NCBI GenBank assembly: GCA_947492955.1
Contig: CANLOV010000003.1
Span: 62,001-126,000 of the forward strand
Direction: 5' to 3'
Length of the DNA: 64,000 bases
Origin: an uncultured Cellulophaga sp.
GTDB lineage: Bacteria; Bacteroidota; Bacteroidia; Flavobacteriales; Flavobacteriaceae
This document shows, piece by piece, positions 45,966-62,515 of this stretch. Position 1 is the first letter of the stretch, and every line of letters starts with the position of its first letter. The position numbers and the translations under genes are program-made. The notes under the pieces were generated by a model. That model saw only the letters and a program-made list of their open reading frames with translations, made no database searches and had not been told where the DNA came from.

Positions 45966-46343
45966 TTAAGCACAAGCATTGCACTCCCCAACCATAAGTA
46001 AACTAGCAGATTCTACTTTATAACCATTTACAGAAGGTAACTTAAAACTTACCGATAGGCATTCTACCTCACCACAGGTTTTACATTGAAAATGAGGATG
46101 TACATCGTTATGTGTTTCGCAAGAACAATCTTGGCACTTTGCATACCATTTAAGTCCTCCTTTACCAATAAAAGAATGTACAACACCATCATCCATAAGC
46201 TTATCTAAAATACGATAAACAGTGGTTTTATTCATTTTCGATTCTAATAATTTAACCAAATCTGCAACAGAGATTGCAGTTTTTTTATTATCAAAAATAT
46301 CAATCAGAGCTTTAACCTGTTTTGTCTGTCTTGTAATACCCAT
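45966..46343 (-). CDS. zur: Fur-family metalloregulator, Zur-like
   Basis: Regulator of 125 residues from ATG 46343 (MGITRQTKQVKALIDIF); an in-frame TTG at 46361 lies inside the operator and is less likely. The winged-helix domain (about 1-75, NKTTVYRILDKLMDDGVVHSF as recognition region) leads to a dimer domain with HPHFQCKTCGEVECL, the extra cysteines CQDCSC and the C-terminal CNAC. CxxC pairs for structural zinc are intact. It is divergent from the 46.4-55.2 kb gene set, and a 23-bp palindrome lies 9 bases before its own start, so it is probably self-regulated. The Zur assignment rests on the regulated genes; Fur-type regulation by iron is the alternative. Confidence 0.8.
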   Translation of the reverse strand: MGITRQTKQVKALIDIFDNKKTAISVADLVKLLESKMNKTTVYRILDKLMDDGVVHSFIGKGGLKWYAKCQDCSCETHNDVHPHFQCKTCGEVECLSVSFKLPSVNGYKVESASLLMVGECNACA

Positions 46344-46352
46344 AATACAAAT

Positions 46353-46375
46353 ATAGTGCAACTAAGTTGCACTAT
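46353..46375. promoter_or_regulatory. Zur-type operator 1 (distal), zur / merC intergenic region
   Basis: Perfect 23-bp palindrome centred on A46364 with core TGCAACTAAGTTGCA and arms extended by ATAG / CTAT. It covers the -33 TTG of the rightward promoter and sits directly in front of the leftward regulator gene. Its core recurs three more times in the window, only in front of the two plus-strand operons. Confidence 0.82.
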
Positions 46376-46398
46376 AAAAATAATTATATTAATATTGC
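46367..46398 (+). promoter_or_regulatory. promoter of the first zinc-island operon
   Basis: TTG (46367-46369), 20-base spacer, TAATATTGC (46390-46398), one mismatch to TAnnTTTGC. The -33 element lies in operator 1 and the end of the -7 element in operator 2, so binding of the repressor to both would cover the promoter. ATG of the first gene is 26 bases downstream. Confidence 0.7.
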
Positions 46399-46410
46399 AA
46401 CTTAGTTGCA
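46396..46410. promoter_or_regulatory. Zur-type operator 2 (proximal)
   Basis: Perfect palindrome TGCAACTTAGTTGCA centred on 46403, 39 bp from the centre of operator 1. It overlaps the 3' end of the -7 element. The bases after it (TTAAAATA) are the same as those after operator 4 at 55289-55296. Confidence 0.82.
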
Positions 46411-46423
46411 TTAAAATATTAAT

Positions 46424-46843
46424 ATGAATTTATCAATAAAAAATAAGCCAGATTCCATTGGCATTATTTCTAGTACATTATGCCTAATACATTGTTTAGC
46501 TACACCATTACTTTTTGCTGCACAAATCCATATTGTAAATGGTGGTCATGGTAAACCCTTTTGGTGGTCAAACATCGATTTAATTTTTTTATTAATTTCT
46601 TCTTTAGCAATATATAAAGCAAGCCTTAACGGAACAAAAGAATGGATTAAAATTGCACTTTGGGGGAGTTTTCTTCTGTTAACATTTATAATAGTAAACG
46701 AAAAAATGGCTTGGTATCATATCCCTGAGCCAGCTATTTATATACCTACATTAAGCCTAATATTTTTACATATCTATAATAATAAATATTGTCAATGTAA
46801 AGATGAATCGTGTTGTGTAAACGATAGACAAAAAAATGGATAA
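46424..46843 (+). CDS. MerC-domain membrane protein
   Basis: Protein of 139 residues with four membrane helices. The MerC signature is in the first helix, STLCLIHCLATPLLF, with the metal-binding Cys pair, and the tail carries a second Cys cluster (NKYCQCKDESCCVND). MerC proteins import mercuric ions in mer operons, but no merA or merR is here. The gene is first behind a Zur-type operator pair, so a role in zinc or other soft-metal movement is more likely. It overlaps folE by eight bases. Confidence 0.82.
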   Translation: MNLSIKNKPDSIGIISSTLCLIHCLATPLLFAAQIHIVNGGHGKPFWWSNIDLIFLLISSLAIYKASLNGTKEWIKIALWGSFLLLTFIIVNEKMAWYHIPEPAIYIPTLSLIFLHIYNNKYCQCKDESCCVNDRQKNG

Positions 46844-47489
46844 AAAAGACATTGAAATAATAGGTAATAACCATATATCTACAAGTGTTGAAACTCCAAT
46901 GCTTTCCAATGCATTTGATAAATCGGATGATGAAAAGATAAAAAACATTCAGCAGCATTTTAAAAAAATTATGGAAGAGTTAGGTCTCGATTTATCAGAT
47001 GATAGCTTGTCTGGTACACCATATCGTTTTGCTAAAATGTACGTAAAAGAACTATTCTATGGCTTAAACCCTAAAAACAAGCCAAAATTATCGGTTTTTG
47101 ATAATAAATATGGTTATAAAAAAATGTTGATAGAGCAGAATATAACCATAGATTCTTCTTGCGAACACCACTTTTTACCCATAACAGGGCACGCGCATAT
47201 TGCCTATATACCAAATGATAAAGTGATAGGGCTTTCTAAAATAAATAGATTGGTAGATTATTATGCACATAGACCACAGGTACAAGAAAGATTGTCTTTG
47301 CAAATTCTTAAAGAATTACAAAATGCATTAGATACAAAAGATGTTATTGTAATGATTTCTGCAAAACACCTGTGTGTATCCTCTAGAGGAATTAAAGACA
47401 AAGATAGTTTTACAACTTCTATAGAGTATGGAGGATGCTTTGAAAGCAAAGAAAATCGTGATGAATTTTTAAATGTAATTAACAATTAA
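46836..47489 (+). CDS. folE: GTP cyclohydrolase I (zinc type)
   Basis: Protein of 217 residues catalysing the first step of tetrahydrofolate synthesis, GTP to dihydroneopterin triphosphate. The three zinc ligands of FolE type IA are present: Cys109 and His112 in SSCEHHFLPI, and Cys180 in SAKHLCVSSRGIKD, with the same 71-residue spacing as in E. coli. It is therefore not the zinc-independent FolE2. Its place behind a Zur-type promoter and upstream of a COG0523 GTPase is notable. It may be a second copy next to a housekeeping folE elsewhere, which the window cannot show. Confidence 0.93.
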   Translation: MDKKDIEIIGNNHISTSVETPMLSNAFDKSDDEKIKNIQQHFKKIMEELGLDLSDDSLSGTPYRFAKMYVKELFYGLNPKNKPKLSVFDNKYGYKKMLIEQNITIDSSCEHHFLPITGHAHIAYIPNDKVIGLSKINRLVDYYAHRPQVQERLSLQILKELQNALDTKDVIVMISAKHLCVSSRGIKDKDSFTTSIEYGGCFESKENRDEFLNVINN

Positions 47490-47500
47490 AAAATATAAGA

Positions 47501-47977
47501 ATGATATCAAAAGAACAAGTACTAGAAGCACAAACCACATGGGGAAATGGTGTAGTAAAAATAGGAGTATTAAAACAGGAAAGACAGGAATGCGAAAAAT
47601 TCACTAGCAAATTTCTTGATGAGTTATATGCATTTGAGGCAGGTACAGTTTTATTTAAACCTACCAAATGTGCTATAGAACAATTTAGACCTACTAAACC
47701 AGAAGCATTATCATATTTTATAGCAGGAGAAAATCGTGCCTGTAACGAGGATAAAGGTTTTGCTATTAATCCTTGGACAAAGGTAAGGTTTGAGAATTCT
47801 GGTATTATTTTAGGAGAAAAACGTGCTATTGCCATGGGGAATTACTTTTTTACAGATTTAAAAGGTAATGAGGCTAAAGTAGAATATACATTTGGCTATA
47901 AGTTAGTTGATCATAAACTAAAGATAGACCTGCATCATTCATCATTCCCTTTCAGTTTAGACGATACTATTGCATAA
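47501..47977 (+). CDS. NTF2/SnoaL-like protein of the zinc island
   Basis: Protein of 158 residues without signal or membrane segment. It has a cone-like alpha+beta layout: MISKEQVLEAQTTWGNGVVKIG helix, LDELYAFEAGTVLFKPTK, then strands INPWTKVRFENSGIILGEKRAIAMGNYFF and VEYTFGYKLVDHKLKIDLHHSSFPF. I recall homologues labelled phosphoribosyl-AMP cyclohydrolase in databases, yet none of the HisI metal motifs are present here, so that name should not be used. His and Cys residues (LHHSS, ENRACNEDKG) could bind metal. Its stop overlaps the next start by one base (TAATG). Confidence 0.65.
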   Translation: MISKEQVLEAQTTWGNGVVKIGVLKQERQECEKFTSKFLDELYAFEAGTVLFKPTKCAIEQFRPTKPEALSYFIAGENRACNEDKGFAINPWTKVRFENSGIILGEKRAIAMGNYFFTDLKGNEAKVEYTFGYKLVDHKLKIDLHHSSFPFSLDDTIA

Positions 47978-48388
47978 TGTACAAGTGCTTGCACCTTGTG
48001 TGCCCTACCGATTGTTTAGAATCTATTATAAACAATAGATTTAAGTATGAAAATTACTTTTATACTTCTTTGGGGAACTCTGTTATGTTTAATAGTAACA
48101 CCATAAGCGAAATTAAAAAACTGATTCTAAAACATAGTATAGCAGAAGTTTCAAATAGAAGTAAATAATCAAAAAGCACATTCTAATATATTATGGCGAA
48201 CAGATAGAAAGCAATTTGCTATTCTTTCTTATTACTTAAATAAGAAAATAAGCGAATTACAATCTGAATTAAATAACTTGTTTTCGACACCAATTAAATT
48301 AAGTGGTAAAATTTACTACAAGCAAGAGAATGTCTTTAGTAATATATATTCTAATTTATTGTGTATTGAAAAACATTATTTAAACTAA
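47977..48388 (+). pseudogene. small gene split by a frameshift
   Basis: The first frame (47977-48168) encodes 63 residues from ATG, MYKCLHLVCPTDCLESIINN to IAEVSNRSK. A second frame, shifted by one base, is open from 48143 to a stop at 48388 and continues with VNNQKAHSNILWRTDRKQF to CIEKHYLN. Both have the codon use of the region, and together they make a plausible protein of about 137 residues. The crossing must lie within 48143-48168. The start is coupled to the previous stop (TAATG), so an intact gene was once, or still is, part of the operon. A sequencing error or programmed frameshift are the alternatives. Function not known. Confidence 0.6.
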
Positions 48389-48447
48389 AAAATATCTATA
48401 GATACCTATCTAAAGTACAATGGTTTCATTAATACAAACTAAATATA

Positions 48448-50127
48448 ATGGAATATAATAGAAGAAAGTTTGTAGCTTTTTTAGGAAAAGCAGGTTTAGG
48501 AATAGCTTTAATACTTCCTTACTTAACAAGTTGTGGAAATAATACTTCAAGTCCAAAAACAGCAGAAAGTATTTCCGCAGAAAATCTTAAACGGTTAAAG
48601 GAGCTATCTTTAGAAGGCTTACTACCATCTAACAAAGACGATTTATTACTTACAAAAGGATTAAATTACCATACTATCATAAAATGGGGAGATCGCATTA
48701 ATGATAAAGATACTTTTGGATTTAATAACGATTTTACTTGTTTTATTCCTTTTGATAAAAACAATCCTTATGATGGTTTATTATGGGTAAATCATGAGTA
48801 TGTAACTTCACTCTTTGTTTCAGGTTTCAATTCTAAAAAAAACAAAGACTCTTTGCAACTTAAGACTAAAGAACAAGTAAATAAAGAGATGTATAATGTT
48901 GGAGGGACCATTGTAAGAATAAAGCAAGAAAACGGGTTATGGAAAGTAGTAGAAAACGATCCGCATAATAAACGCATAACAGCACATACTCCAATAGAAA
49001 TTAATTGGGATACCCCAATAAAAGAGAAAACAACAATAATAGGAACTAATAGTAATTGTTCTGGAGGAATTACTCCTTGGAACACATTTCTTACTTGCGA
49101 AGAAAACTATGATAGCTTTTTTGGGGAAACAGTATATGACAAAGAAGGTACCTACAAACATAAACCAGGTATTTACGGATGGGAAAAATTTTATAATTAT
49201 CCTCCCGAACACTATGGCTGGGTGGTTGAAGTAAATCCAAAAAACGGAACAGCTAAAAAACACATTGCTTTAGGGAGGTTTGCCCATGAATGTTGTACAC
49301 TTTATGAACTTCCAGATCAAAGAATAGTAGCTTACACAGGAGATGATGCGAATGATGAGCATCTGTACAAATTCATTTCATCTAAACCTAGTTCTTTAAA
49401 AGAAGGTACTCTTTATGTAGCCGATGTAGAAAATGGCAATTGGCTGGCTTTAGATTGGGAAAATCAACCTATTTTAAAAAGTAATTTTAAAAACCAAACC
49501 GAGGTGCTTATTAGAACAAGAGAAGCAGCAAAACTATTAGGTGCCACAGCGTTAAATCGTCCCGAAGATATCGAAATTGACCCTGTTACAGGTAATATAC
49601 TAGTCTCTTTAACCAATAATAAAAGTAAAAATGATTATCATGGCTCAATTTTAAAAATAGAAGAATCCAATGGTGTATTTGATGCGTTAACTTTTAAAGC
49701 GTCAAACTATATGGCTGGCGGAGAAGAAAATGGATTTTCTTGTCCAGATAATTTAGCATTTGATTTATCTGGGAATCTTTGGATGACTACAGATATGTCT
49801 GGAAATGCTATGAATAAAGAAAATGGTCCATACATGCCCTTTAAGAATAATAGCCTTTTTGTAATACCAAGATATGGAAAAGATGCAGGTAAAGTAATTC
49901 GTGTTGTATCTGCTCCCACAGATGCTGAACTTACGGGACCATGGTTTGCTCCTGATGGTAAAACACTTTTTTTAAGTGTACAACACCCCGGAGAACAAAG
50001 TAAAGATTTAGAAAACTTAACAAGTAAATGGCCTTTTTATACCGATAATATTCCTAAACCAGCCGTTGTTGCCATTACTGGTGATTTAATTGAGAAAATG
50101 AATTATCTAAATAAAATAGAATCTTAA
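48448..50127 (+). CDS. PhoX-type phosphatase (DUF839 family)
   Basis: Exported protein of 559 residues with a twin-arginine-like signal (NRRKFVAFLGKAGLG) that ends in a lipobox-like LTSCG. The PhoX family signature is seen in NCSGGITPWNTFLTCEENY (about 200-220), AHECC, VAYTGDDANDEHLYKFIS and the C-terminal GPWFAPDGKTLFLSVQHPGE. Characterised PhoX enzymes are beta-propeller alkaline phosphatases using Fe and Ca, unlike the zinc enzyme PhoA. Placing such an enzyme in a zinc-regulated operon suggests replacement of a zinc phosphatase. Whether this member is a phosphomonoesterase is inferred from the family. It is 59 bases after the frameshifted gene. Confidence 0.85.
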   Translation: MEYNRRKFVAFLGKAGLGIALILPYLTSCGNNTSSPKTAESISAENLKRLKELSLEGLLPSNKDDLLLTKGLNYHTIIKWGDRINDKDTFGFNNDFTCFIPFDKNNPYDGLLWVNHEYVTSLFVSGFNSKKNKDSLQLKTKEQVNKEMYNVGGTIVRIKQENGLWKVVENDPHNKRITAHTPIEINWDTPIKEKTTIIGTNSNCSGGITPWNTFLTCEENYDSFFGETVYDKEGTYKHKPGIYGWEKFYNYPPEHYGWVVEVNPKNGTAKKHIALGRFAHECCTLYELPDQRIVAYTGDDANDEHLYKFISSKPSSLKEGTLYVADVENGNWLALDWENQPILKSNFKNQTEVLIRTREAAKLLGATALNRPEDIEIDPVTGNILVSLTNNKSKNDYHGSILKIEESNGVFDALTFKASNYMAGGEENGFSCPDNLAFDLSGNLWMTTDMSGNAMNKENGPYMPFKNNSLFVIPRYGKDAGKVIRVVSAPTDAELTGPWFAPDGKTLFLSVQHPGEQSKDLENLTSKWPFYTDNIPKPAVVAITGDLIEKMNYLNKIES

Positions 50128-50147
50128 TTCGATTAAAGAAAGTATAA

Positions 50148-51350
50148 ATGAAAAAACTCCCCGTAACTGTATTAAGTGGTTTTTTAGGAGCTGGTAAAAC
50201 AACTTTACTTAATCATATATTACACAATAAAGAAGGTTTAAAAGTGGCCGTTATAGTAAATGATATGAGTGAAGTTAATATTGACGCTCAATTTATTGAA
50301 AACGAAAACACACTTTCTAGAACCGAAGAAAAACTTGTAGAGATGAGTAACGGATGTATTTGCTGTACTTTACGAGAAGACCTCATGGTAGAAGTAGAAA
50401 AATTAGCTAATCAAAATAAGTTCGACTATCTATTGATTGAAAGTACAGGAATAAGTGAACCTATTCCTGTAGCTGAAACTTTTACTTTTGAAAGCGAAGA
50501 CGGCACCATAGATTTAAGTCGCTTTAGTTATATAGATACCATGGTAACAGTGGTAGATGCATTTAACTTTTTAAAAGATTTTTCTAGCCCAGATTATTTA
50601 GTTTCAAGAGAGTTAACAAATATAGAAGGAGATGATAGAACTATAGTTAATTTATTAACCGACCAAATTGAATTTGCGAATGTTATACTTATTAATAAAA
50701 TTGACTTAGTAACTAAAGAACAGTTAGAAGAGCTTAAAGCCATTATTAACTCCTTAAACCCTGAAGCTAAAATTATATATACCCAACAATCTAAAGTTAA
50801 ACCTACAGACGTAATTAATACAGAGTTATTTGATTATGAAAAAGCCGAAGCTTCCGCTGGGTGGTTAAAAGAATTAGAGAATGAGCACGTTCCTGAAACA
50901 GAAGAATATGGTATTGGTTCCTTTGTTTTTAGAAGTAAAAAACCATTTCACCCCCAACGCTTTCTAAATTACCTTAATCAGAGTTTCCCTCAAAATGTTA
51001 TTAGAAGTAAAGGTTTATTTTGGCTAGCATCTAGACCCAAACAAGCACTTATATGGAGTTCTGCAGGTGGCTCTTGTAAAGCTGATAATGATGGTGTTTG
51101 GTGGGCATCTATGCTTTTTTCTGAAAGAATTAACTATACTGCTTTCATTGAAAACCAAACAGAAATAGAATCGAATTGGGATCCCCTTTTTGGAGATAGA
51201 AAAATAGAACTCGTATTTATAGGGCAATATTTAGAACAAGAAAAAATTATTAATCAACTAAATGAATGCCTTTTATCTAATACTGAAATAGAACAATGGC
51301 AAGACCATTTATTCCCAGAGATAGACCAATGGCCTATTCAAAAAATTTAA
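50148..51350 (+). CDS. COG0523 GTPase, ZigA/YciC-type zinc metallochaperone
   Basis: G3E-family GTPase of 400 residues. Walker A is [15 protein letters not shown] (about 10-24), the CxCC metal motif is [11 protein letters not shown] (about 69-79), the guanine motif is NKID. The long C-terminal CobW_C domain contains [32 protein letters not shown], which is characteristic for the zinc-linked ZigA/YciC(ZagA) branch. Such proteins deliver zinc to client enzymes during starvation. In Bacillus ZagA has been linked to FolE; here folE is three genes upstream in the same operon. Twenty bases separate it from the phosphatase gene. Confidence 0.92.
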
Positions 51351-51401
51351 TACTAAAACCATAGAGAAAAACGTTAAGTATTAGGCTTTAAAAGCTCTAA
51401 A

Positions 51402-52034
51402 ATGATTAAAACAGATAATCTTACATTTTATTACAACAAGGAAAAAAAAGATGCTTTTTCATTTCCCAATATCACTTTAAAAGAACAAGAAGATTTACTC
51501 ATTTTAGGAAAATCAGGAATAGGCAAAACAACTTTTTTACACCTTTTGGCTGGCTTACTAAAACCTACAAGCGGAAAGGTAAGTATTAACAATGTTGATA
51601 TAAACTCATTATCAAATAATAAGTTAGATAAATTTAGAGGGCAAAACATTGGATTGGTATTTCAAAAAAAACATGCTATACAGTCTTTAAGCGTTTTAAA
51701 AAACTTGGAAGCACGTCTTTTTTTTAGTAAAAAAACGGTTCCTAATTCAGAGATAGAAACCCTGCTACAAAAATTAGGCTTAAGTGCATTTAAACACAAA
51801 AGATTAAATGAACTTAGCGAGGGGCAACTGCAACGTCTTAATATTGCAATGTCTGTTATACATAAACCAAAAGTAATTTTAGCAGACGAACCCACCTCTA
51901 GCCTAGACGATGAAAACTGTAAAATTGTTGTAGAGTTACTTAAAAAACAAGCAAAACTTAATAATGCCTGCTTAATTATAATTACACACGATTCTAGAAT
52001 TAAACCATTCTTTCAAAACACCATTATAATATGA
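51402..52034 (+). CDS. ABC transporter ATP-binding protein, LolD/MacB type
   Basis: Nucleotide-binding subunit of 210 residues. Walker A LGKSGIGKTTFLHLLAGLL, Q-loop VFQKKHAIQSL, signature LSEGQLQRLNIAMSV, Walker B VILADEPTSSLDD and the H-loop THDSR are complete. The signature reads LSEGQ in place of LSGGQ. It overlaps the permease gene by ATGA. The group is mechanotransmission-type (LolCDE, MacB), which suggests work on the cell envelope and not simple ion import. Confidence 0.92.
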   Translation: MIKTDNLTFYYNKEKKDAFSFPNITLKEQEDLLILGKSGIGKTTFLHLLAGLLKPTSGKVSINNVDINSLSNNKLDKFRGQNIGLVFQKKHAIQSLSVLKNLEARLFFSKKTVPNSEIETLLQKLGLSAFKHKRLNELSEGQLQRLNIAMSVIHKPKVILADEPTSSLDDENCKIVVELLKKQAKLNNACLIIITHDSRIKPFFQNTIII

Positions 52035-53245
52035 ATATTTGGAAGATTGCTTTACATAATATAAAGTCTAAACCATTATACACTGCTTTAAGTGTTTTAA
52101 CCTTAGCATTAAGTATTTCATTACTTCTTGCTATGCAGCAATTAAAAAATTCTTTTCAATACCAAATTAAAAATAATTTAGGAGAAATAGATTTAGTTAT
52201 TGGTACAAAAGGCAGCCCATTACAATTAATACTAGCTTCTGTATTACATTTAGATAACCCAACAGGTAATATTTCATATAACGAAGCAAAGAAAATTAGT
52301 AATACCCCTAGCATTAAATCGGCTATTCCAATTTCTTATGGCGATAATTATAAAGGTTTTAGAATTATTGGCACAAACAAAGCTTTTAAAAAACTTTATA
52401 AGGCTAAACTACAAAAGGGACGAGATTTTAATAATCCCATGGAGGTAATTATTGGGCACACTGTTGCTAAACAATTAAAACTTTCAATAGGAGATACATT
52501 TTTAAGTTCTCATGGTTTAGTAGAATCAGACATAGAAATACATGACGAAAAATTTACTATAGTTGGTATTTTAAAACCTACCAAAAAAGTTATAGACCGC
52601 TTAGTTATATGTAATTTAGAAAGTATATGGGATATTCATGAACATGAAGAGGATATAGATATCAATAAAAATCATGATAAAAAAGAACATAACTACGATA
52701 ATGAAATAACGGCATTATTAGTTTCTTTTAGAAATCCTACAGGTTTTTTAACAATACCTAGAATAATTAACGAGCGTAGCAATATGCAAGCTGCATTACC
52801 AAAATACGAACTAGATAAATTATACAATTATATGGGTATTGGCATTAAAACCATTACTTGGATAGCCTATTTAGTGCTTATAATAGCCGGATTAACTATA
52901 TTTATAAGCCTATACAAGATGGTTAAAGAGCGTGCTTTTGATTTAGCTCTTTTACGAACCTATGGCGCAACCAATTTCCAAGTAATGAAAATCGTTGCCT
53001 ATGAAGGAATTATTATAGTTCTTTTTGCCTTTTTAATTGGTATCGCAAGTATTAAAATAGTTTTACCATTGCTACTTAAAACTATTGACTTAGGTTTTAA
53101 AGTTAATTTACTGCAACAATTACCATTACAAATGATATTGCAAATAGGAGCAATAGTTTTTGTTATTATGTTTTTGGCTATTGCTGTAGCAGTGCATCCG
53201 ATTATGAAAATGAAAGTGTCAGAAATTTTAAGAAATGAAAAATAA
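52031..53245 (+). CDS. FtsX/MacB-type ABC permease with His/Asp-rich periplasmic loop
   Basis: Permease of 404 residues with the type VII layout: one N-terminal helix (about 17-37), a large periplasmic domain and three C-terminal helices (about 275-295, 325-350, 365-390). Within the periplasmic domain, residues about 201-226 form a hydrophilic loop with His, Asp and Glu (DIHEHEEDIDIN, then NHDKKEHNYDNE), a probable metal-binding insertion. The FtsX core is seen in VKERAFDLALLRTYGATNFQVMKI. ATGA overlap with the ATPase and an 11-base overlap with the next gene show tight coupling. Confidence 0.88.
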   Translation: MNIWKIALHNIKSKPLYTALSVLTLALSISLLLAMQQLKNSFQYQIKNNLGEIDLVIGTKGSPLQLILASVLHLDNPTGNISYNEAKKISNTPSIKSAIPISYGDNYKGFRIIGTNKAFKKLYKAKLQKGRDFNNPMEVIIGHTVAKQLKLSIGDTFLSSHGLVESDIEIHDEKFTIVGILKPTKKVIDRLVICNLESIWDIHEHEEDIDINKNHDKKEHNYDNEITALLVSFRNPTGFLTIPRIINERSNMQAALPKYELDKLYNYMGIGIKTITWIAYLVLIIAGLTIFISLYKMVKERAFDLALLRTYGATNFQVMKIVAYEGIIIVLFAFLIGIASIKIVLPLLLKTIDLGFKVNLLQQLPLQMILQIGAIVFVIMFLAIAVAVHPIMKMKVSEILRNEK

Positions 53246-53666
53246 AATATTAATCGTATTAATTTCCCTAACCGGTTTAGTGTCTTTTTCTCAAAAGAGT
53301 ATTACATGGGAAGATTTATCAAAAGTAGAATTCACAGAAAAATTTTATCCTTCTTACGATCAAAACTTTTTAGAACCAAAGTTTTCAGAATCGGTTAAAG
53401 CTTTAGAAGGAGAATTAATAATGATAACAGGGTATTTTTTAAATATAGACCCTAATGAAAAAATGTATATCCTATCTAAAGGGCCAATGGCATCTTGTTT
53501 TTTTTGCGGTATAGGAGGTCCCGAAACTGCTATGGAACTTCAATTTAAATCTAAACCAAAGTTTAAGACTGATGACATTATAGTGGTAACTGGTAAATTA
53601 GTATTGAATAAAGACGATATTGAACATTTTAATTATATCCTAACGGAATGCGAAGGTCAACTTTAA
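53235..53666 (+). CDS. periplasmic DUF3299-like protein
   Basis: Exported protein of 143 residues with a signal peptide (MKNKILIVLISLTGLVSFSQ). Its opening ITWEDL, the middle VKALEGELIMITGYFLNI and the late VTGKLVLN resemble the OB-like DUF3299 family, which I recall next to LolD/FtsX-type transporters in zinc-responsive loci of proteobacteria. Two cysteines in ASCFFCGIGG and one in TECEGQ could bind metal. The 11-base overlap with the permease gene suggests that it is the periplasmic partner of that transporter. Confidence 0.65.
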   Translation: MKNKILIVLISLTGLVSFSQKSITWEDLSKVEFTEKFYPSYDQNFLEPKFSESVKALEGELIMITGYFLNIDPNEKMYILSKGPMASCFFCGIGGPETAMELQFKSKPKFKTDDIIVVTGKLVLNKDDIEHFNYILTECEGQL

Positions 53667-53692
53667 AATAAAATAAAGCAAGAGCAACAAAC

Positions 53693-54220
53693 ATGTCAAT
53701 TAAAATCGGAATCATCACTGTAAGCGATAGAGCAAGTAAAGGAATTTATGAAGACCTAAGCGGAAAAGCAATAATAAATACACTACAAAATTATTTAATT
53801 TCTACTTGGAAAGAGGTTTACAAAATAGTCCCAGATGAGCAAGCGCTTATAGAGAAAACAATCATTGATATGGTAGATAATCAAAATTGCTGTTTAGTTA
53901 TTACAACAGGTGGTACTGGCCCAGCAAAAAGAGATGTAACACCAGAAGCTACTGAAGCTGTATGTGATCGTATGATGCCGGGTTTTGGAGAACTTATGAG
54001 AGCAGAATCGTTAAAACATGTGCCAACAGCAATTCTATCTAGGCAAACTGCTGGTTTAAGAGGAACTAGTTTAATTATTAACCTTCCAGGCAAACCTAAA
54101 TCTATACGCGAATGTTTAGACGCTGTTTTTCCTGCTATCCCCTATTGCATAGATCTAATGGAAGGTCCTTATTTAAAATGTAATGAAAACAATATAAAAC
54201 CTTTTAGGCCAAAAAAATAA
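53693..54220 (+). CDS. mogA: molybdopterin adenylyltransferase MogA-like
   Basis: MoaB/MogA-family protein of 175 residues. IGIITVSDRASKGIYEDLSG, the nucleotide loop CLVITTGGTGPAKRDVTPEAT, and LRGTSLIINLPGKPKSIRECLDAVFPAIPYCIDLM are all in the expected order. The length and the RDVTPEA motif favour MogA over MoaB. It activates molybdopterin by adenylation before metal insertion. No other molybdenum-cofactor gene is in the window; why it is here, between a transporter and a COG0523 GTPase, is unclear. Confidence 0.9.
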   Translation: MSIKIGIITVSDRASKGIYEDLSGKAIINTLQNYLISTWKEVYKIVPDEQALIEKTIIDMVDNQNCCLVITTGGTGPAKRDVTPEATEAVCDRMMPGFGELMRAESLKHVPTAILSRQTAGLRGTSLIINLPGKPKSIRECLDAVFPAIPYCIDLMEGPYLKCNENNIKPFRPKK

Positions 54221-54250
54221 AACATAGTAGCAATGATTAGTGTTTAAAAT

Positions 54251-55153
54251 ATGGAAGCCATTATTACTATTGTTGGGTTTTTAGGAGCAGGAAAAACTAC
54301 ACTCTTAAAATATTTAATAGATAAATTTACAGAAGCCAATCACAATCCTTTTATTATTCTTAATGATTATGAAAATGCCTATATAGACGCTCAACAGTTT
54401 ACAAATCAAATACAATCAAAATCTATTAAAGCCCTTAGTGGTAGTTGTATATGTTGTAGTGGTATTGTTGAACTTAGAAATATTGTTAACAGAATTCCCG
54501 AAAGAGAAAATGGCATTACTTTTATAGAAGCCAATGGCACATCCGATGCGTGCTCATTAATAGAGTTTTTGGGTGTAGGGATTAATGAACGTTTTCTACC
54601 TCCTATTCAAATATCCGTAGTTGATGTAAAAAACTGGCAAAAGAGAGGCGAACATAATGATTTAGAATCCAATCAAATACAAGTATCTTCTCTTATCATT
54701 TTAACTCATCTTAATACTATTTCGACCAAGAGAAAAGCAAAAGTTATTCATGAACTAAAAATATTAAATACTTCTGCTAAAATTATAACTATGGATGCAA
54801 TTGATGTGGCATTGCTTCCAAAATTATTACCCTCTAATAATACTGCCCAAAAGTTTGAGCATTTAAAAGCTCACTGGGCATCTTGTTCTGTAGATTTACC
54901 AAATTTACCCAGTATAAAATGTATTAATAATATTTGTAATTCGCTGCCCAAAAGCATTCTTCGTGTTAAAGGTTGCACTCAAATTAACCAAGAACAAGGC
55001 TATATATATTTTGAACGTAAACCAGACGGAGAAATACATATTAGACCATTTAATGGCGTACCCATAACAGGATCAAAACTACTCACTATTGGTCCTGGTA
55101 GCAGCCCCGCTATCCTTAATAAGGCAATTGAAATAAACCTTAAAACAAAGTAG
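54251..55153 (+). CDS. second COG0523 GTPase, short form
   Basis: G3E-family GTPase of 300 residues with Walker [17 protein letters not shown] and the CxCC motif GSCICCSGIVELRNIV. The guanine-specificity motif is degenerate: ILTHLN stands where NKxD is expected. The C-terminal domain is short (LRVKGCTQINQEQGYIYFERKPDGEIHIRPF). It belongs to another COG0523 branch than the one at 50.1 kb, so the two probably serve different clients. It is the last gene before the second operator pair. Confidence 0.85.
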   Translation: MEAIITIVGFLGAGKTTLLKYLIDKFTEANHNPFIILNDYENAYIDAQQFTNQIQSKSIKALSGSCICCSGIVELRNIVNRIPERENGITFIEANGTSDACSLIEFLGVGINERFLPPIQISVVDVKNWQKRGEHNDLESNQIQVSSLIILTHLNTISTKRKAKVIHELKILNTSAKIITMDAIDVALLPKLLPSNNTAQKFEHLKAHWASCSVDLPNLPSIKCINNICNSLPKSILRVKGCTQINQEQGYIYFERKPDGEIHIRPFNGVPITGSKLLTIGPGSSPAILNKAIEINLKTK

Positions 55154-55234: not shown

Positions 55235-55249
55235 TGCAACCAAGTTGCT
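55235..55249. promoter_or_regulatory. Zur-type operator 3 (distal)
   Basis: TGCAACCAAGTTGCT, matching the palindrome TGCAACNNAGTTGCA except for the last base. It covers the -33 TTG at 55245-55247. Its centre, 55242, is 39 bp from that of operator 4. Confidence 0.75.
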
Positions 55250-55276
55250 TTATAATGAAATGCAATGTACTTTTGC
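55245..55276 (+). promoter_or_regulatory. promoter of the second zinc-island operon
   Basis: TTG (55245-55247), 20-base spacer, TACTTTTGC (55268-55276), a full match to the Bacteroidetes consensus. The geometry with respect to the two operators is the same as at 46367-46398. ATG 55315 is 39 bases downstream. Confidence 0.78.
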
Positions 55277-55288
55277 AACAAAGTTGCA
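55274..55288. promoter_or_regulatory. Zur-type operator 4 (proximal)
   Basis: TGCAACAAAGTTGCA, a match to the palindrome of operator 2 except at the two central positions. It overlaps the end of the -7 element and is followed by TTAAAATA as in operator 2. Confidence 0.8.
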
Positions 55289-55314
55289 TTAAAATAAGTA
55301 AATAAACTAATATT

Positions 55315-56028
55315 ATGCTACAAGCAAAAAAGCTTAGTATGCGCTATGAAGATACGCAAGCGCTTAAAGATTTAAGTTTTTCTGTTGCACCAGGAGAAGT
55401 CTTTTGTTTATTAGGACAAAATGGAGCAGGTAAAACAACAACTATTAATATTTTTTTGGGTTTATTAAAACCTACATCAGGAGAAGCTTTAATTAATAAT
55501 AAAGCTATAGCTAAAAACAACTCTACGCGTAGTATGATTGCTTATATCCCAGAAATTGTTCAACTCTATGGGAATTTATCTGGTCAAGAAAATTTAGATT
55601 TTTTTAGCAGATTAGCAAAATGTGTTTATACCAAAGAAGAACTCATTAATTTTTTAACTCAGGCTAATTTACAAGAAGAAGCACATCAAAAAAAATTATC
55701 TACATATTCTAAAGGAATGCGTCAAAAAGTAGGTATCGCTATTGCTTTAGCAAAAAATGCATCATACATACTTATGGACGAACCAACGTCTGGTTTAGAC
55801 CCAAAAGCATCAGTTGAATTTGCAAAAACGTGTAAAGAATTATCAGAAAATGGTGTTGGTATTCTAATGGCTACACACGATATTTTTAACGCCGTAAATA
55901 TTGGCTCCAAAATAGGCATCATGAAAGAAGGAACTTTAGTTCATACTACTGAAACCTCAAAAATTTCTGCACAAGAATTACAAAATTTATACATAAAAAC
56001 AATTGAATTAACTCAAACATTACACTGA
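55315..56028 (+). CDS. ABC transporter ATP-binding protein of the receptor operon
   Basis: Nucleotide-binding protein of 237 residues, ABC-2 export type. Walker A LGQNGAGKTTTINIFLGLL, signature YSKGMRQKVGIAIALA (in place of LSGGQ), Walker B YILMDEPTSGLDP and the H-loop THDIF are present. It should energise the two DUF3526-type permeases encoded at 58.5-61.3 kb. It is separated from the TonB-receptor gene by two bases. Confidence 0.92.
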   Translation: MLQAKKLSMRYEDTQALKDLSFSVAPGEVFCLLGQNGAGKTTTINIFLGLLKPTSGEALINNKAIAKNNSTRSMIAYIPEIVQLYGNLSGQENLDFFSRLAKCVYTKEELINFLTQANLQEEAHQKKLSTYSKGMRQKVGIAIALAKNASYILMDEPTSGLDPKASVEFAKTCKELSENGVGILMATHDIFNAVNIGSKIGIMKEGTLVHTTETSKISAQELQNLYIKTIELTQTLH

Positions 56029-56030
56029 AA

Positions 56031-58529
56031 ATGAATTTTAAAAATATAGTAATAGCTATTACTTTTCTAATTCTACAATTAGGATTTTCACAAGCTAAAA
56101 TTAGTGGAAAAATTGTAGATAAAAACGAAGCACCAATTGTTGGAGCCAATGTTATACTAACCAATACGGCACAACAAAAAACTGGAATGGTTTCTGATAA
56201 CAAGGGTAATTTTAACATTGATATACAAAAAGATGGCACTTATAACATCCGTATTACTTATATAGGTTTTAAAACGTACGTAAAAGAAATTACGATAACT
56301 ACTAATGAAAATTTAGATTTAGGAACCATCTCTTTAATGCAATCTGTAGAGGCATTACAATCTGTAGAGGTCATTGGTAGAATACGTAAAGACTACAATA
56401 GTGATTATTCTTTTTCGGCTACAAAAACAGCCATTAAAAATAAAGAATTACCACAGGCAGTTGCCACCGTTACAAAAGAACTTCTTGCAGACCGTTTAGC
56501 TTTTCAGCTAGCAGATGCGGTAAAAACGGTAAGTAATGTAGCTCCTACTGGTTTATACAACCATTATAATATTCGTGGTATTACACAAGCAGATGACGGA
56601 CAGGTTATTAATGGTATGCGTACTCGCCAATATTACTTTTTACAACCAATAACATCTCATTTAGAGCGTGTAGAAGTTATTAAAGGCCCATCTTCTGTAA
56701 CATTTTCTAGTGCAGACCCAGGAGGTACGGTAAATATGGTTACTAAAAAACCATTAGCTGAAAAAAGAAGTTCTATAGGTTTAACCACAGGTAGTTTTGG
56801 TACGTTAAGAGCTACAGCAGATTTTACAGGACCATTAAACGATTCTAAAACTTTATTATATCGTTTTAATGCAGCTTTTCAAGAAGCAGATTCTTTTAGA
56901 GATGTAGTAAATAACAATGCTATTTTAATCTCACCATCCTTAAGTTATATCCCTAACGAAAGTACATCACTTAATGTGGAAATGATTTATAACAATGCAG
57001 AAGGTAATTTAGATAGAGGTCAGCCAATTTTTGATGCAGTAGATGACAACTACGATATCAATAGTACACCCATTACAAGGAATGTTGGCGCATCTAGCGA
57101 TCATTACAAAACTAAAGAGTTAATACTTATGGCAAGCTTTAGTAAAAAGTTTACAGAAAATTTTAGTTTCAATACTCAGTATATGAAACAAACTTGGGAT
57201 GAAGATTTAGCAGAACATAGAGTAGAAACTACTGCTGTTGATATTGATGGTAATACTGTTCCTAATTTAATAAGATTAAGATATGATGAAAGACAACAAT
57301 TCTGGGAAACTGATAATTTTAGTGGTTATTTTAATTACGATATAAAAAAGAATAATTTTACTAATAAAACTTTAGTAGGTTATGATGCTACTCGTTGGGA
57401 ACGAAAAACTGGTGCAGGTTTTCTTAGAGCTAGAAGATATTCAAAAATTGATGGTGGGCAATCTAATTACAATCCAAGTAATGCCGCAGATTTTCAACAA
57501 ATTGTAGTTAATGGAACAACGCTTCCTGCTCCTGCTGCTGCTTTTTTTGATTTAGACAATACATTTAATGGCGCTAGAGATACAAGAAATTACAATATTG
57601 CTCAATTAAGTATTCCTGCAAATTTAACATCATCGGATGGTATATATATTCAAAATCAATTCAAGATTGGAAAATTCTCGGCATTGGTAAATTTAAGATA
57701 TGAGTGGTTTACAGATATTTTTAATTACAAAGGAGATGAACAGGAATTTAAAACCAGTGCTTTTGTACCTAGACTTGGTTTAACTTATGAAATTACCGAT
57801 AACATAAGTGCTTACACTACATATTTAGAAGGGTTTCAACCGCATACCAATACAGTGTCCTTATCACCTACAGCAGAAGGGTTCTTCTGGGGAGCATCAC
57901 CAGGAAGATTTGACCCATTAGAAAGTAGTTTAAAAGAGATTGGTGCTAAGGGCGAATTTTTAAATGGTAAAATATTTGCAAACATTGCTTTTTTTGATAT
58001 TAATCAAAAAAACATTTTACTTGGAGACACATACGATTTAGAAAGTTTAACAACAAGAGGTGAGCAAAGAAGCAAAGGTTTTGAAATGGATATTTCTGGT
58101 TATGTAATGCCAAATTTTCAGCTTACAGCATCTTACGGTTTTACAGATGCTGAAATTGTAGAAGATGCTATAGAAGAGTTTATAGGAGAACGTATCGGAG
58201 GTGCGCCAAAGCATAATGCAAATTTTTGGGGACGTTATGATTTTATGAATAAAACATTAAGAGGTATTGGAATTGGTTTTGGTGCCCAGTATGTAGATGA
58301 AAAATATACATGGTACAATCCTACTTACGATACTAATAGAGTACTATTACCAGATTATACCATATTTGATGCTGCTATTTATTACAAGCCAGATAATACA
58401 GGCATCCAATTAACACTTAAAGTAAATAATTTATTTGATAAAACATATTGGTTAGGTGGGCTTAACCCTTCTAGATTAGGCCCGGGAGCACCAAGAAATG
58501 TATTACTAAACGCTACTTATAAATTTTAG
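56031..58529 (+). CDS. TonB-dependent siderophore-type receptor
   Basis: Outer-membrane receptor of 832 residues. It has a signal peptide (about 1-21), a carboxypeptidase-regulatory-like domain (about 24-105, ISGKIVDKNEAPIVGANVIL), a plug (about 130-240, with YNIRGITQADDGQVINGMRT and ERVEVIKGPSSVTFSSADPGGTVN) and a 22-strand barrel ending in NVLLNATYKF. The plug pattern is that of FhuA/FpvA-type siderophore receptors. As its operon is under the Zur-type operators, the ligand is more likely a zinc chelate (zincophore) or a xenosiderophore that carries zinc than plain iron siderophore. This is inference. Confidence 0.9.
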   Translation: MNFKNIVIAITFLILQLGFSQAKISGKIVDKNEAPIVGANVILTNTAQQKTGMVSDNKGNFNIDIQKDGTYNIRITYIGFKTYVKEITITTNENLDLGTISLMQSVEALQSVEVIGRIRKDYNSDYSFSATKTAIKNKELPQAVATVTKELLADRLAFQLADAVKTVSNVAPTGLYNHYNIRGITQADDGQVINGMRTRQYYFLQPITSHLERVEVIKGPSSVTFSSADPGGTVNMVTKKPLAEKRSSIGLTTGSFGTLRATADFTGPLNDSKTLLYRFNAAFQEADSFRDVVNNNAILISPSLSYIPNESTSLNVEMIYNNAEGNLDRGQPIFDAVDDNYDINSTPITRNVGASSDHYKTKELILMASFSKKFTENFSFNTQYMKQTWDEDLAEHRVETTAVDIDGNTVPNLIRLRYDERQQFWETDNFSGYFNYDIKKNNFTNKTLVGYDATRWERKTGAGFLRARRYSKIDGGQSNYNPSNAADFQQIVVNGTTLPAPAAAFFDLDNTFNGARDTRNYNIAQLSIPANLTSSDGIYIQNQFKIGKFSALVNLRYEWFTDIFNYKGDEQEFKTSAFVPRLGLTYEITDNISAYTTYLEGFQPHTNTVSLSPTAEGFFWGASPGRFDPLESSLKEIGAKGEFLNGKIFANIAFFDINQKNILLGDTYDLESLTTRGEQRSKGFEMDISGYVMPNFQLTASYGFTDAEIVEDAIEEFIGERIGGAPKHNANFWGRYDFMNKTLRGIGIGFGAQYVDEKYTWYNPTYDTNRVLLPDYTIFDAAIYYKPDNTGIQLTLKVNNLFDKTYWLGGLNPSRLGPGAPRNVLLNATYKF

Positions 58530-58534
58530 ATAAA

Positions 58535-59980: not shown

Positions 59981-59982
59981 TT

Positions 59983-61329
59983 GTGTATAACCTATTAATT
60001 AAACAATTTTTCAGGTCTAAAACCGTATGGTTAGCCTTTGGCATTATAATGGTTTTAGGTATTTTAAGTATTGGTACAGGAAAACAGTTTGTAATACAAA
60101 AAGAAGAAGCGATTGCTAAAACTATTGAAAAACAAGAAGAACATATAAAAAGGCAAGTAAAACTTCATGAAAATCATATTGGCTTATTATTATATTATTT
60201 AAAATTCTCATTTATTAATCCTGTTGAGCCACTTTCCGCTATTTCAATTGGACAAAGCGATTTAAACTCACACATTCAAAATGTAAAAATTTTAAATTTA
60301 GAAGGACAAAAATATGATACCGATTTGGTAAATCCTATGCGTTTACAAGTAGGTAATTTAGATTTGAGTTTTCTTATTATTTTTCTCTTTCCACTTGTAA
60401 TTATAGCATTAAATTTTAATGTGCTTTCAGAAGAAATTGAAAAAGGCACTTGGAAAATGGTTACCCTCCAAGGCATTTCGCCTTTTAAGTTTTTAATAAT
60501 GAAATTAGGCATTAGAATACTCTTTATTTGCTTAGTCTTAGGCGTTTTATTTTTGTTGTCTAAACTTATCTTAGATATACCATTCAATACAGATTTTATA
60601 AACATTATAATCATTAGTTATTTGTATATCTTTTTCTGGTTTTCATTATGTTTTTTTGTGATTTTACTTAGAAAATCATCAAACACTAATGCTATTACGC
60701 TGTTAGCGAGTTGGTTGCTATTGGTTGTGTTCTTACCTGTTTTAGTAAATAACTACATTATTAACAAATATCCTGTTGATGAAGCTTTTACAATGACTAT
60801 TAAGCAAAGAGACGAATACCATAAACGATGGGATACCGATAAAAAAGAGACTATGGACAAGTTTTATAAACATTACCCACAGTTTAAAAAATACAAATTG
60901 CAAGAAGAAGGCTTTTCCTGGTTATGGTATTACGCTATGCAGCAAATGGGAGATGACGAATCTCAGCATGAAAAAGAAGATATGTATAGTAAGATTAAAA
61001 ATAGAGAACAGTTAAGTTCCCAAATAGCGCAATTTTTTCCTCCGTTACAAGTACAATTAGCAATGAATACTATTGCTAACACCAGTTTAACAAATCATGT
61101 TGATTTTTTAAACGAAACCACAAACTTTCATGAAAAAATCCGTTTACAGTTTTATCCTAAAATTTTTGAAAACCAAAAGGCAAGTGCTGTAAATTGGGAA
61201 GTATATAAACCTGAGTTTTTTATATCTACTGCTAATTTTAGTTGGATAAAAAATATATTACCAATGACTTTAATTACAATAGTTTTAATTGGTTTTGCAG
61301 TTTTTAGAAACTTTAGATACTTTAATTAA
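59983..61329 (+). CDS. DUF3526-type ABC permease, second subunit
   Basis: Membrane protein of 448 residues with the same topology as its neighbour: N-terminal helix (about 15-33), periplasmic domain, a five-helix core (about 120-260) and a C-terminal helix (about 425-443). It lacks the His-rich stretch. The start is GTG at 59983, two bases after the previous stop; there is no ATG that would keep the first helix. The two permeases probably form a heterodimer with the ATPase at 55.3 kb. Confidence 0.84.
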   Translation: MYNLLIKQFFRSKTVWLAFGIIMVLGILSIGTGKQFVIQKEEAIAKTIEKQEEHIKRQVKLHENHIGLLLYYLKFSFINPVEPLSAISIGQSDLNSHIQNVKILNLEGQKYDTDLVNPMRLQVGNLDLSFLIIFLFPLVIIALNFNVLSEEIEKGTWKMVTLQGISPFKFLIMKLGIRILFICLVLGVLFLLSKLILDIPFNTDFINIIIISYLYIFFWFSLCFFVILLRKSSNTNAITLLASWLLLVVFLPVLVNNYIINKYPVDEAFTMTIKQRDEYHKRWDTDKKETMDKFYKHYPQFKKYKLQEEGFSWLWYYAMQQMGDDESQHEKEDMYSKIKNREQLSSQIAQFFPPLQVQLAMNTIANTSLTNHVDFLNETTNFHEKIRLQFYPKIFENQKASAVNWEVYKPEFFISTANFSWIKNILPMTLITIVLIGFAVFRNFRYFN

Positions 61330-61363
61330 ATAAAATTAGTAACTAATAAACTATATCTATTTA

Positions 61364-62515
61364 ATGACAACTGATACGGTAGAAAATAAAAAGAAAGTAA
61401 GCAGAATTGCTTCCATAGACATATTAAGGGGTTTGGTAATGCTAATAATGTTGGTAGATCATGTGAGAGAACATTTTTTTTCTCATCATACAGTAATGGA
61501 CCCAATGATAATTGAAGAGACAAGTAGTAGTTTATTTTTCACCAGATTCTCAGCACATTTCTGCGCCCCCATTTTTGTTTTTTTAACAGGTTTATCTGCT
61601 TGGCTATATTCAAACCCAAAGGGTAAACCCCAAAGGTCTGCAACAGCATTTTTATTAAAGCGAGGACTTTTTTTAATTCTTTTAGAAGTAACTCTTATTA
61701 ATTTTTCATGGTCTGGCACCTATAACATCTTGTACTTACAAGTTATATGGGCAATTGGTTTAAGTATGATTTCTTTGGGCTTTTTAAGCAGATTACCAAG
61801 AGTTTGGATTGGAATACTTGGATTTATTATTGTTTTTGGGCATAATCTTTTAACTCCGATTACATTTTTAAAGGATGAGCTAGGTTACAACCTTTGGACT
61901 GTTCTTCACGATAGAGGTTATTTGGTAATCGATGGCTTTATAAATACCAGAGTTTCTTATCCTTTGCTACCATGGATAGGAGTAATTTTATTAGGGTATT
62001 TTGCAGGACCTATATTTCATTATACATCAACCATAAAAAGACAAAAAACACTTTTGCTTATTGGTGTATCTTCTATTACTTTACTTTTAATATTAAGAGG
62101 ATTTAATATATATGGAGAAACTTTAGCTTGGGAAGCTCATAATTCAACAATAAAATCGGTAATGTCTTTTTTAAACTATACAAAATACCCTCCATCATTA
62201 CATTTTATACTACTTACTGTGGGTATTGGTATTTTACTTCTTTCTTGTTTTGAAAACATTACTAATAAATTTACCCAAATATTAAAGGTATTTGGCTCTG
62301 CTCCTATGTTTTTTTATATTCTTCACCTATATACCATCCTAATAATTCATGGAATTTTAATGTCAACAATAAATAATGGTGAAATTATTAAAGTAAATAA
62401 CATTTATCAGGTTTTGCTAATTTCAATAGGCTTATCTGTTTTACTATATTTTCCAACAAAAATATTCTCTAACTACAAACGCAGAAGCTCATCTAAACTA
62501 ATAAAGTATTTTTAG
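61364..62515 (+). CDS. DUF1624 / heparan-alpha-glucosaminide N-acetyltransferase-like membrane protein
   Basis: Integral membrane protein of 383 residues with ten or so helices. The start RIASIDILRGLVMLIMLVDHVREHFF is the family signature with conserved Asp and His; FLTGLSAWLYSNPKGKPQRSATAFLLKRGLFLILLEVTLI and PLLPWIGVILLGYFAGP follow. Such proteins move acyl groups over the membrane or modify sugars; substrate unknown. The 34-base gap to the permease gene suggests that it is the last gene of the second operon, but a direct role in metal uptake is not evident. Confidence 0.82.
   Translation: MTTDTVENKKKVSRIASIDILRGLVMLIMLVDHVREHFFSHHTVMDPMIIEETSSSLFFTRFSAHFCAPIFVFLTGLSAWLYSNPKGKPQRSATAFLLKRGLFLILLEVTLINFSWSGTYNILYLQVIWAIGLSMISLGFLSRLPRVWIGILGFIIVFGHNLLTPITFLKDELGYNLWTVLHDRGYLVIDGFINTRVSYPLLPWIGVILLGYFAGPIFHYTSTIKRQKTLLLIGVSSITLLLILRGFNIYGETLAWEAHNSTIKSVMSFLNYTKYPPSLHFILLTVGIGILLLSCFENITNKFTQILKVFGSAPMFFYILHLYTILIIHGILMSTINNGEIIKVNNIYQVLLISIGLSVLLYFPTKIFSNYKRRSSSKLIKYF

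Follow-up and report, generated by a model that had tools for sequence, protein, structure and literature searches.

To which metal does a small Fur-family repressor respond when it stands beside two operons of metal-handling genes, and what would the release of these operons offer the cell? This question is raised by a locus of an uncultured Cellulophaga sp. (Flavobacteriaceae; GenBank assembly GCA_947492955.1) that lies in a stretch of 64,000 nucleotides (nt) of contig CANLOV010000003.1 (positions 62,001 to 126,000 of the forward strand), here called the window, from the first letter of which positions are counted. The host genome (G000) is 3.87 Mb in size and 99.8% complete, and the window falls within its contig C3; below, the letter C marks contigs and the letter L compared loci. 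To the right of the regulator gene, which is on the minus strand, 15 intact genes and 1 decayed gene are arranged on the plus strand in two blocks (46424-55153 and 55315-62515). A sequence-only reading had described this locus as a Zur-type zinc-starvation island lacking, as a whole set, a described counterpart. As judged from kinship and genomic context, the locus is probably a zinc-starvation regulon under a repressor of Zur type. The regulator's matches to solved structures, its metal-ligand positions, the operators beside most of its orthologs, and the genes for a ZigA-type GTPase, an iota-class carbonic anhydrase (CA), and a PA4066-like protein all agree with the earlier assignment of the set; the claim that it has no counterpart fared less well.

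A Zur-type regulator and its predicted paired operators

The FUR domain of the regulator scores modestly against Pfam (38.5 bits for PF01475, with a cut-off of 23.1). Against solved structures, four matches were obtained at E ≤ 0.001, the best being E. coli Zur (4mtd) and M. tuberculosis FurB, whose entries are titled 'zinc uptake regulation' proteins; the next two are 'putative metal uptake regulation proteins', which we take to be Streptomyces Zur. Among 29 orthologs, conservation was found at H56, C70, H78, H82, H84, C87, C90, C95, C121, and C124, with both CxxC pairs (C87/C90 and C121/C124) invariant and H56, C70, and H78 retained in at least 90%. By the alignment of the regulator to 4mtd, several of these His and Cys positions are presumably those of the Zur sensor ligands in E. 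coli Zur numbering, the fourth sensor position being Glu in E. coli Zur and Cys95 in the window regulator. The NCBIfam equivalog model for Zur, which is of the E. coli type, gave 30.1 bits against a cut-off of 167, and since this cut-off was missed, the label 'Zur-type' is used instead of that of the equivalog. By hand count, 30 of 199 family genomes, sampled at one per genus, have an ortholog (at least 46% identity), as do 13 of 18 genomes within the genus; orthologs score 121 bits or more, and the next matches below them 104 bits or less. Kinship, metal-ligand positions, and adjoining operators together make the Zur-type reading of the regulator well supported.

The predicted operators are copies of the palindrome TGCAAC-N3-GTTGCA, one pair of which heads each operon, with starts 39 nt apart in both pairs. 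The four copies reported earlier before the two adjacent plus-strand operons were recovered, three of them exact and one with one mismatch. The further claim that the palindrome is found only there holds genome-wide for exact copies, all three of which lie at the two operons, and not for copies with one mismatch, the limit of the genome-wide scan: two further sites were found, at C6:23459 and C24:7171, and a reversed control pattern gave 0 matches across the genome. The site on C6 was ruled out as a regulon target, being inside an open reading frame (ORF) of 251 amino acids (aa), and the one on C24 is upstream of another set of Fur-like and TonB-receptor genes. Within the window alone, at up to two mismatches, 5 matches were counted against 1.56 expected; because 5 were also reached in 2 of 100 shuffles, the strength of the palindrome lies in its exact copies and their placement.

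Of 44 regulator neighbourhoods used for comparison, 43 contain an ortholog and the remaining one a 36% relative. Including orthologs met in the iota-CA loci described below, and with orthologs and pairs de-duplicated by sequence, 50 of 57 distinct orthologs have the palindrome, one mismatch being allowed, within 200 base pairs (bp) upstream, and in 33 it is exact. Neighbouring copies are spaced by 37-39 nt in 27 of 27 cases (by 38 or 39 in 26). A count of all inverted repeats with 6-nt arms and spacers of 0-10 ranked TGCAAC-N3 first upstream of regulators (23 of 41) and likewise before iota-CA genes (27 of 79 when 1500 bp were considered and 13 of 79 when 250 bp were); upstream, no unrelated repeat did better than 6, and on the downstream side of iota-CA an A/T repeat of another kind attained 10 of 80 loci. 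Among the exact palindromes in these loci, 69 of 74 lie no more than 250 bp from a set gene, mostly the regulator, merC, or iota-CA, and about 11 matches were obtained altogether with 122 shuffled arms, none adjoining such a gene; it should be noted that the loci were picked by regulator or iota-CA, so that this proximity is partly built in and the controls guard only partly, and that the single-palindrome counts include five duplicated contigs (L111/L131, L065/L143, L077/L150, L072/L170, and L067/L188). At the genome level, an exact palindrome is present in 23 of the 30 genomes with an ortholog (hand count).

Other Fur-like genes were met as well. In the host, a paralogue of about 30% identity (G000:C2:28381-28740, L118) faces the gene of a Pyr_redox_2 (pyridine-nucleotide) oxidoreductase, and paralogues of 30-33% identity stand beside a Pyr_redox_2 oxidoreductase gene in L119, L120, and L121, with an exact copy of the palindrome adjoining. 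On contig C24 (G000:C24:1-7425, L124), a second Fur-like gene follows genes for a TonB receptor and a His/Cys-rich DUF6660 protein and has the one-mismatch palindrome upstream; its product is perhaps another regulator of this type.

Promoters with a TAnnTTTG -7 box have TTG as their -33 element. This box is the main -7 box of Flavobacterium in the available text of PMC9723704. Of 50 distinct pairs, 42 show a perfect TAnnTTTG whose last two bases are the first two of the second palindrome, the other 8 having one mismatch; at the same offset from the first palindrome, a perfect box occurs in 0 of 49 pairs, one pair being at the edge of its stretch, and a box with one mismatch in 2. The right arm of the first palindrome places TTG 17-21 nt ahead of the -7 box (19 or 20 nt in 43 of 49). 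Since the TG of the -7 box and the TTG lie within the palindrome itself, the independent evidence is confined to the remaining four bases of that box. Each operator of a pair would cover one promoter element, which would account for the fixed spacing of the pairs; these were selected at 36-40 nt, the 37-39 nt spacing having first been observed without that selection. Pairs facing merC have a regulator-side -7 box within 30 nt in 28 of 36 cases, at an identical position in 26. Repression is thus predicted to act in both directions and to include the regulator's own gene, since operator 1 abuts the -7 box of that gene. A separate promoter for phoX in the gap 47977-48448 was rejected, no perfect TAnnTTTG having been found there.

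A predicted metal-free carbonic anhydrase behind Zur-type operators

The ORF at 47501-47977, left unnamed by the sequence-only reading, encodes an iota-class (COG4337), predicted metal-free CA. Its product matches Bigelowiella 7c5x at E 1.4e-85 over three domains and Anabaena 7c5v at E 1.7e-27, the matches spanning residues 2-152, and the active-site residues T55, Y72, H145, and S147 are retained and invariant in 6 aligned sequences. According to the available text of PMC8132391, mutation of those residues lowered or abolished activity, and the enzyme is active without metal. The window protein is like the Anabaena (all2909) and Bigelowiella enzymes of that study in full-length sequence and in the four key residues; it differs from them in that its gene stands behind Zur-type operators, the word 'Zur' being absent from the same available text.

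Relatives were sought in one genome per species, over 84,980 species, by means of two peptide patterns taken from six flavobacterial sequences, and the resulting counts speak for Bacteroidota. A total of 98 relatives were found and 80 were kept, all with record titles that we take to be those of Bacteroidota groups. The palindrome, with one mismatch allowed, is present in 45 of these 80 loci, 43 of which have other genes of the set and 2 of which have the palindrome alone; of the 35 loci without it, 4 have set genes and 31 have neither. In 15 of the 80 loci, the palindrome lies within 200 bp upstream of iota-CA itself (13 exact), and these loci include records titled Flavobacteriaceae, Crocinitomicaceae, Saprospiraceae, and Cyclobacteriaceae.

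If iota-CA serves as a backup during zinc starvation, genomes with the palindrome should retain the zinc enzyme. This genome-wide prediction held, in that iota-CA genomes with the palindrome mostly retain a zinc beta-CA and the others mostly have none. The host genome has one zinc-type beta-CA elsewhere. By hand count, 37 of 44 palindrome genomes have a beta-CA (L147 being omitted, and one genome with a weak, broken match being scored as lacking), versus 4 of 35 others. Below 2.5 Mb, a subset that guards against genome incompleteness, the hand counts are 9 of 13 versus 1 of 31, a wide contrast, although the Fisher p-values of the survey overstate independence since the loci are related; many of the surveyed genomes are draft or single-cell genomes with completeness not given. 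Iota-CA looks like a zinc-starvation backup that then became the main enzyme in small-genome lineages. A solitary iota-CA was seen in L136-L139, L142, L144, L149, L151, and other palindrome-less iota-CA loci, in genomes mostly of 1-2.5 Mb and mostly without beta-CA.

Behind iota-CA, a 165-aa companion gene starts within 60 nt in 34 of the 35 loci that have it; intact copies are found, for example, at L150:8477-8974 and L131:8477-8974, both on the plus strand. The one member scanned matched no Pfam family, and the predicted fold of an intact companion (mean pLDDT 77) is that of a beta-CA. Across 26 sequences, a single Cys is invariant and no His is invariant or near-invariant. The zinc ligands of beta-CA are two Cys and one His (PMC8132391, available text), so the companion would be without the usual zinc site. 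In the window, tblastn recovered two pieces of the companion in different frames, with the middle part gone (47977-48385). By analogy with the zinc-free L31 that displaces zinc L31 in ribosomes, a full CA handover on zinc starvation can be pictured for Bacteroidota: Zur would free iota-CA together with the zinc-less companion, which would join beta-CA oligomers and unload or silence them; small-genome lineages would have fixed the handover through loss of beta-CA, and in the host, where the companion has decayed, iota-CA would act alone. We regard this extended scheme as quite unlikely.

Other genes of the two operons

Domain searches bore out the gene set of the earlier reading, namely a FUR regulator, MerC, FolE, PhoX, two COG0523 GTPases, two ATP-binding cassette (ABC) systems, and a TonB receptor (Table 1).

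Table 1. Genes, predicted operators, and promoter elements of the locus (window coordinates).
Feature	Position	Strand	Evidence or remark
Zur-type Fur-family regulator	45966..46343	-	PF01475 38.5 bits; 125 aa; ATG at 46343, TTG-started ORF to 46361
Regulator's own -7 box	46348..46355	-	TATATTTG; abuts operator 1
Predicted operator 1, pair 1	46357..46371		TGCAACTAAGTTGCA, exact; right arm gives merC TTG 46367-46369
merC -7-like box	46390..46397	+	TAATATTG; one mismatch; TTG at 46367
Predicted operator 2, pair 1	46396..46410		TGCAACTTAGTTGCA, exact; overlaps merC -7-like box
MerC-family membrane protein	46424..46843	+	PF03203 61.5 bits
FolE paralogue, class IA	46836..47489	+	NCBIfam FolE; zinc ligands intact
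Iota-class (predicted metal-free) CA	47501..47977	+	PDB 7c5x, 7c5v; NCBIfam metal-independent CA 108 bits
Decayed companion gene, from a family of predicted beta-CA fold lacking the zinc site	47977..48385	+	tblastn pieces
PhoX-family phosphatase	48448..50127	+	PF05787 338.8 bits
ZigA-type COG0523 GTPase	50148..51350	+	NF038288 567 bits, under cut-off of 600
LolD/MacB-type ABC ATPase	51402..52034	+	PF00005; LolD 158 bits, below cut-off
MacB/FtsX-type permease, His-rich loop	52031..53245	+	PF12704, PF02687
143-aa secreted OB-fold protein, PA4066/DUF3299-like by fold	53235..53666	+	AlphaFold pLDDT 82; best PDB match 4hsp
MogA-type molybdopterin adenylyltransferase	53693..54220	+	PRK09417 285 bits, over cut-off
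Second COG0523 GTPase	54251..55153	+	PF02492 90.4 bits
Predicted operator 1, pair 2	55235..55249		TGCAACCAAGTTGCT, one mismatch; carries TTG 55245-55247
Operon 2 -7 box	55268..55275	+	TACTTTTG; last TG common to operator 2; TTG at 55245
Predicted operator 2, pair 2	55274..55288		TGCAACAAAGTTGCA, exact
ABC ATPase, ABC-2 type, ZnuG-like position	55315..56028	+	PF00005
TonB-dependent receptor, siderophore-receptor type	56031..58529	+	TIGR01783 272.7 bits, over cut-off
DUF3526 ABC-2 permease, His-rich N-terminal segment	58535..59980	+	PF12040 102.8 bits
Second DUF3526 ABC-2 permease	59983..61329	+	PF12040 96.2 bits
DUF1624/HGSNAT-type protein, membership doubtful	61364..62515	+	PF07786

Metal sparing, as first proposed, stands through iota-CA, which had gone unnoticed, and is doubtful for FolE and PhoX. 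FolE, one of 3 copies in the genome, was rejected as the zinc-free FolE2: it is of class IA and retains its ligands in the CEHH and HLC motifs. A replacement of zinc PhoA by PhoX was rejected for the host genome, in which no PF00245 gene was found. Among relatives, the next gene after the 143-aa one in L061, L069, L081, L083, and L084 is that of an alkaline phosphatase of PhoA type (471-488 aa; Pfam match for the one in L083), and PhoX is found in the set instead in L064, L107, L108, and L110; PhoA-type and PhoX genes were together in no fetched neighbourhood, and none of the 80 iota-CA loci has a PhoA-type gene. MogA recurs in 4 regulator neighbourhoods and in 2 of the 80 iota-CA loci. In MerC, the residues C20, H23, C24, D52, H116, and C123 are invariant across 56 aligned relatives.

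The His-rich periplasmic segment noted in each ABC system is conserved. In the first system it is a loop of the MacB/FtsX permease, of which H73, H161, and H203 are invariant in 21 aligned sequences, and in the first DUF3526 permease H72, H76, and H108 are retained in 82% of 17. For the 143-aa protein, sequence searches gave no match to Pfam DUF3299, the best weak OB-type matches being at E 0.03 and above, and the best match to PDB sequences at E 0.16; its likeness to DUF3299 is one of predicted fold. Uptake over both membranes, as first proposed, is a possible role of the window systems. The earlier statement that ZnuABC is lacking is correct for the window; the genome has a single ZnuA-family gene (G000:C5:284240-285058, L126). 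This gene was rejected as a regulon target, there being no palindrome and a DtxR-type regulator at the head of the operon, and the leading DtxR-type repressor suggests manganese rather than zinc uptake. Near the regulator in L083:9654-14826, L064, L071, L109, L110, L113, L114, and L116, genes were seen for another TonB receptor (about 790 aa), a 102-aa protein, and His-rich DUF4625 lipoproteins, which are likely a further zinc-uptake set, unseen in the window.

The island had been drawn through the DUF1624 gene, and that last membership is the part that was given up: neither the neighbourhoods fetched from relatives nor the 80 iota-CA loci yielded a homolog, and the DUF3526 module itself is present in only about 16 of the latter. 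The DUF1624 gene is probably outside the regulon, and the lack of homologs in related loci hints at an end of the island at 61329.

Alternative readings

Several observations weigh against a zinc-specific regulon. The NCBIfam models for PerR and Zur score about equally on the regulator, both far under their cut-offs, and 7 of the 57 orthologs are without a nearby palindrome, among them those of L109, L113, L114, and L116, where the regulator comes after a set of TonB-receptor genes with which it shares the strand. The 30-33%-identical paralogues of L119-L121 are likewise adjoined by the palindrome, and an exact copy occurs in 33 of 169 family genomes without an ortholog; the motif is thus not exclusive to this regulator and is probably shared by other Fur-like proteins. 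Among the genes of the set, iota-CA scores 108 bits (E 3e-31) and does not reach the cut-off of 350 for the NF047901 equivalog, FolE is not a zinc-free form, and neither MogA nor PhoX, the latter in a genome without PhoA, has a clear zinc-sparing role. The regulator might sense another metal (manganese, iron, cobalt, or nickel) or redox stress, with the operons forming a general metal-stress set. The level PerR and Zur scores would fit such a role, as would the oxidoreductase gene faced by the paralogue on C2, such paralogues having the same palindrome, and the fact that PhoX, MogA, and MerC are not specific to zinc. However, the best solved-structure matches of the regulator are zinc regulators, the ZigA-type GTPase, the metal-free CA, and the PA4066-like protein indicate zinc, and manganese-type uptake in the host genome is under a separate DtxR-type regulator; a sensor of another signal is considered unlikely. 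Alternatively, a loose island may have collected behind a strong regulated promoter, in which case iota-CA and others would be passengers and the true zinc genes would be those of ZigA and the ABC modules alone. This would agree with a gene order and content that vary highly among relatives, with fragmentary copies of MerC, FolE, or other genes in several of them (L057, L058, L080, L115, and L117), with the decay of the companion in the window, and with a DUF1624 gene not found in relatives. Yet the palindrome lies directly upstream of iota-CA in loci under at least four family titles, and the presence of beta-CA is sharply divided by the context of iota-CA, so that mere passengers appear very improbable.

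Within the zinc-starvation regulon that is preferred here, the ABC systems might export or relay a metallophore or lipoproteins, or move zinc off the outer membrane, instead of importing zinc. Both types, MacB/LolD and ABC-2/NatA, are best known for export or mechanotransmission, the models matched are mostly those of export systems, and domain scans found no classical solute-binding protein in either operon. In the other direction point the conserved His-rich periplasmic segments as well as Caulobacter, where, in the available text of PMC4176598, znuGHI is under Zur repression and is named as a putative system for high-affinity uptake, and growth without zinc depends on ZnuK. Export or relay is a serious possibility, if a somewhat doubtful one.

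Relation to described systems

A Zur-type zinc-starvation regulon is itself of a known kind, and parts of the set do have described counterparts. Operon 2 resembles Caulobacter ZnuK-ZnuGHI, which is under a Zur box (PMC4176598, available text), in its TonB receptor, ABC-2 ATPase, and two ABC-2 permeases; the operator is another one and the window receptor gene lies between those of the ATPase and the permeases, and the likeness is thus one of gene content only. Similarly, the LolD/MacB-type genes and the 143-aa gene recall PA4064-PA4066 of the zinc-repressed PA4063-PA4066/ZrgABCDE systems, with their MacB-like ATPase, permease, and periplasmic OB-fold (DUF3299) protein (PMC8561739 and PMC9817125, available texts). 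In contrast to those systems, the window operons have no gene for a His-rich protein such as PA4063/ZrgA, and the permease has a His-rich loop instead. This module may work like Zrg and is not classed as a member. In proteobacterial Zur regulons, COG0523 GTPase genes likewise stand beside FolE-type and CA genes, the idea being that such paralogues need another metal or none, but these are FolE2 and a gamma-class CA, whereas the window has a class IA FolE and iota-CA, another operator, and another phylum (Haas et al., 2009, PMC2770081); in the available text of that study, 'Bacteroidetes' and 'Flavobacteri' occur 0 times. Its gamma-CA is the nearest precedent for the CA swap.

Literature searches, which covered titles and the start of abstracts and left most subscription journals uncovered, gave no iota-CA under Zur and no Zur regulon of Bacteroidetes or Flavobacteria among the matches listed. 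One match on a metal-independent CA with Zur concerned a Pseudomonas gamma-CA. For the operator and promoter layout, the swap to a metal-free CA, and the companion, no description was found, and to this extent the earlier statement stands.

Proposed mechanism and significance

In the proposed mechanism, zinc-bound Zur dimers would sit on the paired operators and hold the promoter repressed, operator 1 covering the -33 TTG and abutting the regulator's own -7 box, and operator 2 overlapping the TAnnTTTG of the operon. A drop in zinc would release both operons. From operon 1, metal-free iota-CA would take over CO2 hydration from zinc beta-CA, and ZigA, a putative zinc-delivering GTPase, would be made together with the second COG0523 GTPase; the FolE paralogue, predicted still to require zinc, may be the client of these GTPases. 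MerC, PhoX, and the PA4064-4066-like ABC/OB-fold module would be produced as well. Operon 2 would supply the ZnuK-ZnuGHI-like TonB receptor, the ABC-2 ATPase, and the two DUF3526 permeases for putative zinc acquisition.

With these findings, a candidate operator becomes available for Bacteroidota, together with a promoter layout and a gene set, all open to direct test. Zinc sparing is, moreover, a plausible reason for the presence of a metal-free iota-CA in non-photosynthetic bacteria. If the proposed role is true, an essential reaction would continue without zinc in these cells through a CA that needs no metal.

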